DNA from: Nereocystis luetkeana
Taxonomy: Eukaryota; Sar; Phaeophyceae; Laminariales; Laminariaceae
Reading direction: 5' to 3'
Assembly (NCBI GenBank): GCA_031213475.1
Contig: JARUPZ010000017.1
Span: 8,946,790 to 9,010,789, forward strand
DNA length: 64,000 bases
In this document: in pieces, positions 51,172 through 57,669 of the stretch
Layout: each line of letters opens with the position of its first letter
How positions within the stretch are numbered: position 1 is the stretch's first letter
Translations under genes and position numbers: made by a program
The notes under the pieces: model-generated
Told to the model about the DNA's origin: nothing
What the model saw: the letters and a program-made list of their open reading frames with translations, nothing else
The model's database searches: none

Positions 51172-52227
51172 ACAACCCTCGCACCGCCGCTCGTCATCGA
51201 AGCGGCAGGTCAGAGGTATAAGCAGACGACCCAGTTCTTATACCTAGGCGGCGTTATCCACGAAAACGCTGCGCTCTCGCTCGAAATCGACCGACGGATC
51301 CGCCTCATGCGAGCATGCCTCAAACGGTTCGGCCCGGAGTTGTATGATAGGACGACCGCCCCCCTTAGCCTTAGAGTCCGAATGCTGAAGACCGAGGTGG
51401 TTGAGACCCTGCTGTACGGGTGTGTGACGTGGACCCTCAGAGCGGAGCACTTTGCCAAGCTTCGAACGGCTCACCACCAAGTCCTGTTGCGAGTCATTGG
51501 CTTCCAGCGCCGACTTCGTACTGACCATGCCACCCTCTCGTACGCGAAGGCCCTCAAGATGACACGTTGCGAGAGCATCGAAGCGACCATTCGTAAACGG
51601 CGGCTCTTCTTTGCGGGAGGCGTGGCACGGCAAAGCAAGGAGCGATTACCCAGTCGGGTAATGTTCGGGACGATAACTGGTGGGGAGAACCCGAGACCAG
51701 GCGGACAGTGCAAGACTTGGCATAGATGCATAGTCGAAGACCTCAGGGAGTTCCGAGCCACCGAAGGGTCAGTTGCCCCCTTGGTGTTTGGAGTTGAGAC
51801 CGCGTTGTGGTCCACCGCAGCGAAAAAGGCGGGGAAGTGGTGCCGGGGGATCGTTGAAGCAGCCGAACGGTTCATGATGAGGTGGCACGAGGCTGAGGCT
51901 GAGATGAGTAGGCAGCGCCGCGCATCCGCCGTGGATGGTGCCCAAGGGAACGGAGGGGGGGGGGGCAACAGGAGAAGTGGAAGAATGCCCGACCAAGGGA
52001 ATGCGGAGAGGGGGGGAAACAGGAGGGGTAGAAGGGAAACGGCGGTAGACGAAAGTAGGAAGGAGATGGCAGACAGGGTAGCAAGGCACCAAGTCGACCA
52101 GGAAGTAGAACACGACCATACTACTATTAATAGTGCTACGAACTGGGGCAGCTGGTTCGAACGTGGTCTTCCCTTATATTCTCTTCTTGTTTTTGTTTTT
52201 TTTCTTTCTTGCGCTGACTCTCCGTGA
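51172..52227 (+). pseudogene. LINE B C-terminal region after a premature stop
   Basis: In frame with the RT segment: FLYLGGVIHENA, LLYGCVTWTL, VLLRVIGFQRR, GENPRPGGQC, FMMRWHEAEAEM, then an Arg/Gly/Asn-rich tail. The truncated copies end the protein at a TAG after a His-Gln-(Val/Ala)-Asp (for example 54770); here that codon is CAG (52099), so the frame runs about 40 codons into the 3' UTR. The region is thought to support RNA binding in this class of element. Confidence 0.8.
52124..52133. repeat. CTATTAATAG scar inside LINE B
   Basis: The other two LINE B copies have CTAG at this spot (54744-54747 and 56825-56828). Only this copy has the 6-bp insertion. Confidence 0.75.
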
Positions 52228-52988
52228 TTTTCATATTATTTTTTTCTCTTCCTCTTCCTTTTCTGATTGATAAGCCGTACTGAAAGAGCCGTGTGGCGTG
52301 GTTGGAAGACGAACCTGCTCTGCTCGTTTCGTATTGTCTGACGCCAAGGGGCTGGACATAGTTGACGAACGCAGGGCGGAGACGGCAGTCTGGGCAGCAA
52401 GGTACCAGGCGGATTAGCAGGGAGAACCTGGCTATACTACTCGTACCACAAGCTGCTGCCGCCACCTGGAAGGTGCTTTGGGCTTTGGTCTGCCTTTTAT
52501 TTCCCCCTTGTTTTTTTTCGTTGTTACTTTTTTTTTTTTTCCTTGGTTCTTTGTCTTACTCTGTTTACAAGCAGTGGTGTTTTTTTTTCTTATTATTTTT
52601 CTTACTTTTTTCCCAGCTTGTTCTTTTTCAAGTAAGTGTTGGCCACCTCGCCTGCGGGGGGGGGGCACGACAGATTGTTTCTCCTAGATTTTGCTTTTAT
52701 TTTTTTCTTATTCTCTTTCGATTTGTCTACCTTGTTTTTTTTTACTCTTTGATTGTTTCTTTTATTTTCCCTATTTCATAGATTGCGTATGTCGTGCCTG
52801 TCGTATCTAGTATGATGACATGGCTTTGCATTGCCCACTGCAGTGCATACTGCACACGTGGCAACGTAGTATCTCTGTGGCGTAGCTTTGTGACCACAGA
52901 ACTTGTATATCTTCTAGGATTGAAGAATCGGCACGGACACTGGTTGTGCTGGATGTCGACGGGTAGAAAGAACGGTTTAATGTGAAGA

Positions 52989-53257
52989 ACACACACACAC
53001 ACACACACACACACACACACACACACACACACACACACACACACACACACACACACACACACACACACACACACACACACACACACACACACACACACAC
53101 ACACACACACACACACACACACACACACACACACACACACACACACACACACACACACACACACACACACACACACACACACACACACACACACACACAC
53201 ACACACACACACACACACACACACACACACACACACACACACACACACACACACACA
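52989..53257 (+). repeat. AC microsatellite, about 134 units
   Basis: Uninterrupted AC repeat directly following the LINE B 3' end. All frames through it are open (Thr-His or Val-Cys repeats) and are not genes. Confidence 0.97.
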
Positions 53258-53397
53258 AAAGAACAACGGGCTAAATTTTCATGTATTTCTAAGAATATGT
53301 ACCAGTATGTCGTGCCTGTCGTACTATTCATAGTACCACGGGTATGTAGCAATGCCCATGCATGGCATTGCTATGTCTACTGCTGTATAACATCAAT

Positions 53398-55883: not shown

Positions 55884-55941
55884 ACTGCATTGTATTGTGA
55901 GTTAATCGGAGAACAACAACAATAACAACAACAACAACAAT
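55884..55941 (+). mobile_element. LINE A 3'-end fragment, right half
   Basis: ACTGCATTGTATTGTGAGTT then AATCGGAG and an interrupted AAC tail, continuing 53828-53860 after the LINE B insertion. Confidence 0.8.
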
Positions 55942-55992
55942 ATCTGTGCGAGGATAAATCCAGGAAAATGCAACTCAAACAAATGGTGTTTA

Positions 55993-57669
55993 TGTGTGTT
56001 CTTCACATTATTCCGTCCTTTCTACCCGTCGACATCCAGCACAACCAGTGTCCGTGCCGATTCTTCAATCCTATTAATAGAAGAGATGCAAGTTCTGTGG
56101 TCACAAAGCTACGCCACAGAGATACTACGTTGCCACGTATGCAGTAAGCACTGCAGTGGGCAATGCGATGTCATAATACTAGATACGAAAGGCACGACAT
56201 ACACAATCTATGAAATAGAGAAACGAAAGGAAACAATCAAAGAGAAAACAAAAACACAAATCGCAAGAGAAAAAGAAGAAAATGAAAGCAAAAACTAGGA
56301 GAAACAATCTGTCGTGCCCCCCCCCCGCAGGCGAGGTGGCCAACACTTGACAAAGAACGAGCTGGCAAAAAGAAAAAAATAACAAAAACACCACTGCTTG
56401 TAAACAGAGTAAGACAAAGAACCAAGGAAAAAAAAATAATGAGAAAATAACAAAGGGAAAATAACAGGCAGACCAAAGCCCAAAGCACCCCTCCAGGTGG
56501 CGGCAGCAGTTTGTGGTACGAGTAGTGTAGCCAGGTTCCCCCAGCTAATCCGCCTGGTACCTTGCTACCCAGACTGCCGTCTCCGCCCTGCTCGCGTCAA
56601 CTATGCCCAGCCCCTTGGCGTCAGACAATACGAAACGAGCAGAGCACGTTCGCCATCCAACCACGCCACACGGCTCTTTCACTACGGCTTATCAATCAGA
56701 AAAGGAAGAGAAAAAGAAAAAATGAAAATCACAGAGAGTCAGCGCAAGAAAGAAAAAAAAAGAAAAGAAAAAAAGAGAAGACAAGGGAAGACCACGTTCG
56801 AACCAGCTGCACCAGTTGGTGGCACTAGTAGTATGACCGACCATGTTCTACTTCCTAGTCGGCCTGGTGCCTTGCTACCCTGTCTGCCATCTCCTTCCTA
56901 CTTTCGTTTACAGCCGTTTCCCTTCTACCCCTCCTGTTCCCCCCCCTCTCCGCATTCCCTTGGTCGGGCATTCTGCCACTTCTCCTGTTGCCCCCTCCCC
57001 CTCCGTTCCCTTGGGCACCATCCACAGCGGATGCGCGGCGATGCCTACTCATCTCAGCCTCAGCCTCGTGCCACCTCATCATGAACCGTTCGGCTGCTTC
57101 AAGGATCCCCCGGCACCACTTCCCCGCCTTTTTCGCTGCAGTGACCACAACGCGGTCTCAACTCCAAACACCAAGGGGGCAACTTCCGTTGACCCTTCGG
57201 TGGCTCGGAACTCCCTAAGGTCTTCGACTATGCATCTATGCCAAGTCTTGCACTGTCTGCCTGGTCTCGGGTTCTCCCCACCAGCTATCGTCCCGAACAT
57301 TACCCGACTGGGTAATCGCTCCTTGCTTTGCCGTGCAACGCCCCCCGCAAAGAAGAGCCGCCGTTTACGAATGGTCGCTTCGATGCTCTCGCAACGTGTC
57401 ATCTTGAGGGCCTTCGCGTACGAGAGGGTGGCAAGGTCAGTACGAAGTCGGGGCTGGAAGCCAATGACTCGCAACAGGACTACTTGGTGGTGAGCCGTTC
57501 GAAGCTTGGCAAAGTGCTCCGCTCTGAGGGTTCACGTCACACACCCGTACAGCAGGGTCTTAATCACCTCGGCCTTCATTATTCGGACTTTAAGGCTAAG
57601 GGGGGCGGTCGTCCTATCATACAACTCCGGGCCGAACCGTTTGAGGCATGCTCGCATGAGGCGGATCCG
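55993..57669 (-). mobile_element. LINE B, 5'-truncated copy d
   Basis: Minus strand: from inside the YLGG/LLYGC region (starts near RIRLMRACLKRF at 57669) to the 3' end with a short AC tail. The frame is broken in two or more places (around 57125 and 57480). It carries CTATTAATAG at 56071 where copies b, c and e have CTAG. Confidence 0.85.
56071..56080. repeat. CTATTAATAG scar inside LINE B copy d
   Basis: Copies at 52914, 53950 and 21803 have CTAG at the homologous site. Confidence 0.8.

Follow-up and report, generated by a model that had tools for sequence, protein, structure and literature searches.

The question raised by a stretch of 64,000 nucleotides of the Nereocystis luetkeana genome (the whole of which is called the window here; contig 17, positions 8946790-9010789, from an assembly comprising 1987 contigs and 465,085,209 bases) is why a ten-letter palindrome, CTATTAATAG, should be found in it seven times. 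The answer proposed is that the word is very probably the excision footprint, or scar, of M1, a miniature inverted-repeat transposable element (MITE) of approximately 105 bp, or of relatives of M1 moved by the same transposase. The matter bears on a more general one, since MITEs are abundant even if cut-and-paste movement alone gains them nothing, and their excisions are often hard to see because of messy repair.

The seven occurrences are all exact at the positions given by the initial annotation (table 1), against an expectation of 0.02, below the 0.06 quoted there. None of 100 dinucleotide shuffles reached seven, and Markov models placed the expectation at 0.02-0.04. Only two AT repeats are commoner in the window among palindromic ten-letter words, and CTATTAATAG is the sole repeated word of the form CTA-NNNN-TAG, eight others being present once each. 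Two larger samples of the same assembly were read, with stretches outside the window designated by L-numbers: one of 264 kb, made up of the window and twenty 10-kb pieces not picked by scar, and one of 345 kb holding 83 scars, namely the seven of the window, six in the random pieces and 70 in stretches picked from the genome-wide list of CTATTAATAG. In the 264 kb the word was found 13 times versus 0.16 expected from a third-order Markov model. The genome-wide count, which would have refuted the idea had it been near expectation, is 22,282 places versus 267 for the reversed word used as control, so that the idea withstands this test; part of the count is due to duplication of repeats already scarred. 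The supposition that scars are limited to CTAG held only in part: CTAG sites are real, but scars at half-sites are found too (CTATTAATAC, 20,077 places versus 521 for the control; 12 versus 0.5 expected in the 264 kb, three of the 12 being repeat copies in L008).

The direction of the change was read from repeat copies that can be aligned across a scar. At 52124, in a long interspersed element (LINE) termed LINE B, the minus-strand copies 56952-56703 and 54867-54594 have CTAG with a clean 6-bp gap, as initially described, and a third aligned relative is diverged. At 56071, copies 53002-52789, 21884-21678 and 53865-54078 likewise have CTAG, in every case opposite a clean gap of 6 bp; two more diverged copies, at 25248-25328 and 53608-53482, were left unmentioned by the initial annotation and read otherwise. 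When L067, a second copy scarred at this site, is included, four relatives have CTAG and the others are diverged. The copy at 53608-53482 has CTACGTGTA. At window position 53537, on the minus strand, a LINE B relative has CTACGTGTAC in place of the CTAG of others, a 6-bp difference of another kind at the same site and possibly the footprint of another element.

By flank similarity the 83 scars fall into 62 clusters. One high-copy repeat family, that of the window scar at 23031, accounts for 18 of them, all at one site, and four more pairs are related. Of these 18 copies, 17 had been fetched because they carry CTATTAATAG, and their scar was probably inherited by repeat copying, so that the genome-wide count of the word does not equal a count of events. 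With this large family left out, 14 clusters have an aligned unscarred relative, and CTAG relatives are present in six of them (window 52124, window 56071 with L067, L004, L027, L028 and L048). For the L002 cluster an M1-occupied relative was found in the 345 kb and CTAG relatives in a later search of the genome. Thus, CTAG stands as the unscarred state at seven independent sites, the two LINE sites and five further ones, each with a precise 6-bp difference. Among paralogue insertions and deletions with clean flanks in the 264 kb, 13 distinct 6-bp insertions were found, two of which are scars; no insertion of at least 40 bp at TA passed the clean-flank paralogue filter in this sample.

M1 has long terminal inverted repeats, TTACGGGGG...CCCCCGTAA. 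Searches with nhmmer found seven copies in the window, 28 in the 264 kb and 31 in the 345 kb. In the copy at 20630-20740 the terminal repeats are 30-nt arms, 97% complementary, and the consensus of 27 copies, from which these diverge by 10.5% on average, folds end to end as a close to full hairpin. The sequence of intact ends is TATTACGGGG, usually preceded by C: exact M1 ends are present genome-wide at 34,491 places with C before the TA (reversed control, 43) and at 22,744 with another base (control, 158), that is 60% with C. The copies at 20630-20740 and 45093-45213 stand between C-TA and TA-G, as had been reported, and none of the five further window copies has both ends intact in this context. 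Among 20 clean-ended copies in the 345 kb, C-TA and TA-G are found on both sides in seven and on at least one side in 15. Duplication of the TA target is seen by comparing copy L021:1160 with two unoccupied relatives that each have CTAG where M1 would join (only 73-76% identity over 93-113 columns), and copies L005 and L105 with 10 CTAG relatives, the flanks being imperfect (right TA altered in L105; one base of the left TA region altered in L005). Assignment of M1 to the Stowaway elements was rejected, as M1 begins TTACGGGGG and not CTCCCTCCG, which we take to be the Stowaway terminal sequence. A scar at L011:7210 coincides with one end of an M1 copy, and there CTATTACGGGG seemingly changed to CTAGTACGGGG; perhaps a new CTAG was created by a point change and then served as a target. 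In a further stretch (G000 C1:11129722-11132533) GTATTACGGGGG is repeated five times on the same strand in less than 3 kb, perhaps as a tandem array with M1 ends in it.

As the excision reading predicts, a single site was found empty, occupied by M1 and scarred in different copies of the L002 family. Scar L002:1501 aligns with L005 over approximately 780 bp at 76-80% identity, and in L005 it is precisely the scarred position that M1 occupies. Searching the genome with L002 gave 399 candidates, of which 40 were scored, and 42 matches were listed; 20 stretches holding 22 matches were fetched. In the 23 copies read (L002, L005 and L105 included) the site is CTAG in 10, the exact scar in five (L099 being counted among these), a scar decayed by one base in two, M1 in two and something else in four. 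A search with M1 plus its flanks gave three full-cover matches besides L005, and the one that was read, L105, has M1 at the site. Because the M1 sequences of L005 and L105 are visibly different, the site may have been entered by M1 more than once. The original reading of the scars as footprints of M1-type (Tc1/mariner-like) excision is supported, the step from the presence of M1 at such a site to its departure being one of inference, since occupied and scarred copies are paralogues.

Scars and M1 also share, by their flanks, a target consisting of CTAG, its half-sites and a purine before CTAG. Of the scar flanks, 82 of 120 have a purine at position −1 (Fisher P = 1.5e-7), as do 26 of the 37 M1-type end flanks (P = 1.1e-3), versus 355 of 830 genomic CTAG flanks. 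This comparison used 60 scars, 23 of the 83 having been dropped as members of the large family or near-duplicates, and M1 flanks selected through end words (CTATTACGG and near variants), without confirmation that every one of them bounds an M1 copy. For enrichment over the last six positions the correlation of scars with M1 is r 0.80; the sample of M1 flanks is a small one, and at position −2 only scars reach significance. Furthermore, the footprint has a size of two bases from each end. The 3+3 word CTATTATAATAG is found genome-wide only 106 times (control, 22), some two hundred times less often than the 2+2 word, and in the 264 kb neither the single-overhang product CTATTTAG (2 observed, 3.3 expected) nor the 1+1 product CTATATAG (4 versus 3.4) is enriched, with CTATTATAG at 4 versus 1.5 and CTATTTAATAG at 1 versus 0.07 (P 0.07 each). 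Such word searches are blind to messy repairs.

These observations would be accounted for by the following path. M1 would insert into the TA of CTAG, less often of CTAC or other half-sites, with duplication of the TA, so that the occupied site would read C-TA-[TTACGG...CCGTAA]-TA-G. On departure the transposase would cut the 5' strand at either end, two bases into the element, and the host would join the flanks with both two-base overhangs kept, yielding C-TA-TT-AA-TA-G; the TT and TT overhangs would be unable to pair, which is maybe the reason why both survive. Of this path, the sequence comparisons show that the scar differs from CTAG by 6 bp at seven sites, that M1 stands in CTAG with TA duplicated at two, that one site exists in three states, that scars and M1 have the same target preference, and that the size is 2+2. 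That M1 itself left the scarred sites, the strand and position of the cut, and end joining as the mode of repair are what we infer from them. M1 has the traits of MITEs of the Tc1/mariner (IS630, pogo) superfamily, namely TA duplication, terminal inverted repeats and a footprint of few bases between duplicated TAs, the last of which would be tied to M1 through its presumed excision, and it would be moved by a Tc1/mariner-type, possibly pogo-type, transposase. Profile searches of the genome gave no match to DDE_3 (30 candidates; the control was positive in 3 of 14 genomes) nor to Transposase_1, for which the control was silent too. For DDE_1, which we take to be the pogo-type domain, there were 28 matches, several without stops (control positive in 0 of 14 genomes).

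Several points weigh against excision of M1 as the origin of the scars. None of the DDE_3, Transposase_1 and DDE_1 searches tied a transposase to M1, the flanks of the DDE_1 matches not having been read for M1 ends. Seven of the 14 clusters with an unscarred relative (L001, L035, L044, L051, L062, L069 and L070) show cleanly neither CTAG nor M1, and M1 copy L024:5812 has an unoccupied relative that bears a deletion and lacks CTAG. In the L002 family the query bears a scar, which biases the share of scars among the copies upwards, and the second occupied copy, L105, came from a search aimed at M1 occupancy. On the poorly resolved trees of this family scars are interleaved with CTAG copies, so that either the site was apparently hit repeatedly or copies were mixed. 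The four other states at this site (CTACAGCTATTAACAG, CTACAACTCG, CTCTTAG and CTAAAG) may be messy repairs, and suggest that repair is not always exact. Finally, since M1-occupied and scarred copies were compared as paralogues and not as alleles, two independent insertions could have used one CTAG by chance. From the counts of CTAG (417 in the 264 kb), scars and M1 ends, 2-3% of CTAG sites would hold M1 and approximately 3% a scar, giving a few tenths to 0.7 chance M1/scar pairs among some 14 to 30 comparisons.

Among other explanations, the scars may have been left by a different TA-type element with TT...AA ends and the same target preference, for example a longer or extinct relative of M1 using the same transposase. 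This is unlikely, but deserves consideration: as two bases per end survive, the scar cannot name its element beyond TT...AA, and DDE_1 transposase genes are present in the genome. However, M1 is very abundant, it occupies the same site as a scar in the L002 family, and it is the only recurrent family standing as C-TA-TT...AA-TA-G in a search of the 264 kb for pairs of terminal repeats (14 bases with up to two mismatches, 50-1200 bp apart), elements longer than 1200 bp lying outside its range. Other pairs starting with TT were rejected, since they lay in the interior of M1, belonged to a TTAA-type repeat, or were found once only and lacked the C...G flanks. A second inverted-repeat family was noticed at 34157-34252, TTAACCC(C/T)TTTAGAACCGCAGTCCCG..., approximately 95 bp long and flanked by TTAA, also with arms at 39768-39848 and 40450-40540 and in L010, L018, L019 and L022; it looks like a TTAA-type MITE.

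Loss of the M1 palindrome by replication slippage from the TA of TTACG to the TA of CGTAA, a hairpin deletion requiring no transposase, would yield a product identical to CTATTAATAG. The near-complete hairpin formed by M1 is in its favour, and palindrome instability has been raised, in a study of Stowaway elements (PMC1925063), as a route by which these may be lost. The same two-base homology, however, predicts CTAATAG and CTATTAG as well, which are not enriched in the 264 kb (8 observed versus 14.6 expected, third-order Markov), and slippage is accordingly given little credence here.

A still smaller chance is left to the reverse polarity, in which CTATTAATAG would be the older state, reduced to CTAG when 6 bp are deleted between its TAs. 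The TA at both ends of the palindrome would make slippage possible, the single CTAG relative of each of L004, L027 and L028 leaves the direction at those sites, taken alone, unfixed, and the scar is widespread in the window-23031 family, which says little given how its copies were fetched. Against it, CTAG outnumbers the scar at 52124 (2 to 1), at 56071 (4 to 2) and at L048 (3 to 1), and no other state is as frequent in the L002 family (10 of 23) despite the scarred query. Copying of repeats that contain CTATTAATAG explains some of the count, given the 18-copy family and the four related pairs; that the word spread in this way only, without recurrent insertion, is refuted by the 62 clusters with unrelated flanks that the 83 scars still form and by the seven sites showing insertion.

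Table 1. Positions in the window of the scar word, of its unscarred counterparts in repeat copies and of M1.
Feature	Position	Strand	Basis or remark
Scar CTATTAATAG	14179..14188	no strand	no scorable paralogue in the 345 kb read
Scar CTATTAATAG	18887..18896	no strand	no scorable paralogue in the 345 kb read
Scar CTATTAATAG, probably inherited in 18-copy family	23031..23040	no strand	paralogue 34945-34954 has CTATTGATTG, a shared decayed scar
Scar CTATTAATAG	27139..27148	no strand	no scorable paralogue in the 345 kb read
Scar CTATTAATAG	47951..47960	no strand	also present in a duplicate (L079, contig 1) of 98% identity
Scar in LINE B, 6-bp insertion relative to CTAG	52124..52133	no strand	CTAG copies at 54744-54747 and 56825-56828
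Scar in LINE B copy, 6-bp insertion relative to CTAG	56071..56080	no strand	CTAG at 52914-52917, 21803-21806, 53950-53953 and in L019; L067 scarred at same site
Unscarred CTAG, 52124 site	54744..54747	-	paralogue alignment
Unscarred CTAG, 52124 site	56825..56828	-	paralogue alignment
Unscarred CTAG, 56071 site	52914..52917	-	paralogue alignment
Unscarred CTAG, 56071 site	21803..21806	-	paralogue alignment
Unscarred CTAG, 56071 site	53950..53953	+	paralogue alignment
M1, flanks C-TA ... TA-G	20630..20740	+	nhmmer; arms 97% complementary
M1, flanks C-TA ... TA-G	45093..45213	+	nhmmer
M1, right end at TAG, left end altered	9018..9128	+	nhmmer
M1, diverged	11674..11783	+	nhmmer
M1, ends altered	43769..43876	+	nhmmer
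M1, right end missing	59521..59623	+	nhmmer
M1, left end missing	62588..62709	+	nhmmer

The window also contains many short repeats and LINE reverse transcriptases recognized by RVT_1 (E 3e-34 at 49177-51168; E 8e-20 at 35990-37582 on the minus strand). The LINE reverse transcriptase open reading frame found no match in phages, and the M1 end pattern was found 0 times in viral contigs. A perfect run of the AC dinucleotide, 269 bases long (52989-53257), adjoins LINE B copies. At 38444-38929, in the interior of the contig and not at its end, telomere-like CTAACCC/GGTTAG repeats are arranged as inverted arms, and a long inverted repeat at 26458-26985 has arms of 153 nt at 98% and, inside them, of 71 nt at 99% complementarity, around 87 nt.

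If excision of M1 is accepted as the source of the scars, a further and more tentative proposal, to which somewhat less than an even chance is given, is that a single exact footprint is the usual product in this genome, breaks being mostly sealed with both non-complementary TT overhangs kept and leaving a countable ledger of past jumps. With duplicates included, its entries are 22,282 full-site and 20,077 half-site scar words versus 57,235 exact M1 ends in place. Were the proposal true, the ratio of scars to residents would tell how often the MITE left per copy gained, with no need to observe active movement. One exact footprint readable without a second genome would allow excisions to be counted, dated inside repeats of known age and compared with resident copies, and genes that once carried the element to be found. 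No genome-wide count of one exact MITE footprint was found by title or abstract, in a search whose scope excluded subscription papers and preprints; among the matches listed for CTATTAATAG, and among those listed for TTACGGGGG with 'mite', none was on transposons by title or start of the abstract.

The kind of event is known, and it is the uniformity and number of the footprints that are unusual. Among the described systems, Stowaway elements are TA-duplicating MITEs with putative footprints of few terminal bases between the duplicated TAs and with repeated insertion and loss at one site, as in a Triticeae beta-amylase intron, where five different putative footprints were described at one locus (PMC1925063). 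M1 resembles them in these respects, and differs in its terminal sequence TTACGGGGG and in that one exact palindromic word, placed at CTAG and half-sites, recurs on a scale of tens of thousands. ISY100, of the Tc1/mariner/IS630 family, is cut exactly at the 3' ends, whereas at the 5' ends the cut lies two bases within the element (PMC2170065), a geometry that would allow the 2+2 footprint, and the reference list of the same paper names, in a title, the transposition of IS630 to the TA in CTAG. However, these are bacterial insertion sequences with their own transposase, and when ISY100 backbones were sealed by ligase the joint was TATATA, read here as one overhang kept, whereas the scar described here keeps both. 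ZB, Sleeping Beauty and their relatives are also cut-and-paste TA elements leaving short footprints, of 0-3 bp for ZB and 2-4 bp as given for Tc1/mariner elements (PMC7913693), but the scar of N. luetkeana has 4 bp between two TAs, invariant in the word counted. Finally, excision sites were likewise read by genomic sequence comparison for DNA transposons of two rice species, where perfect excision was seen in 8 of 94 cases, the others showing deletions or filler (PMC4423477), unlike the present case, in which one exact product stands out, albeit in word counts that do not register messy repairs.

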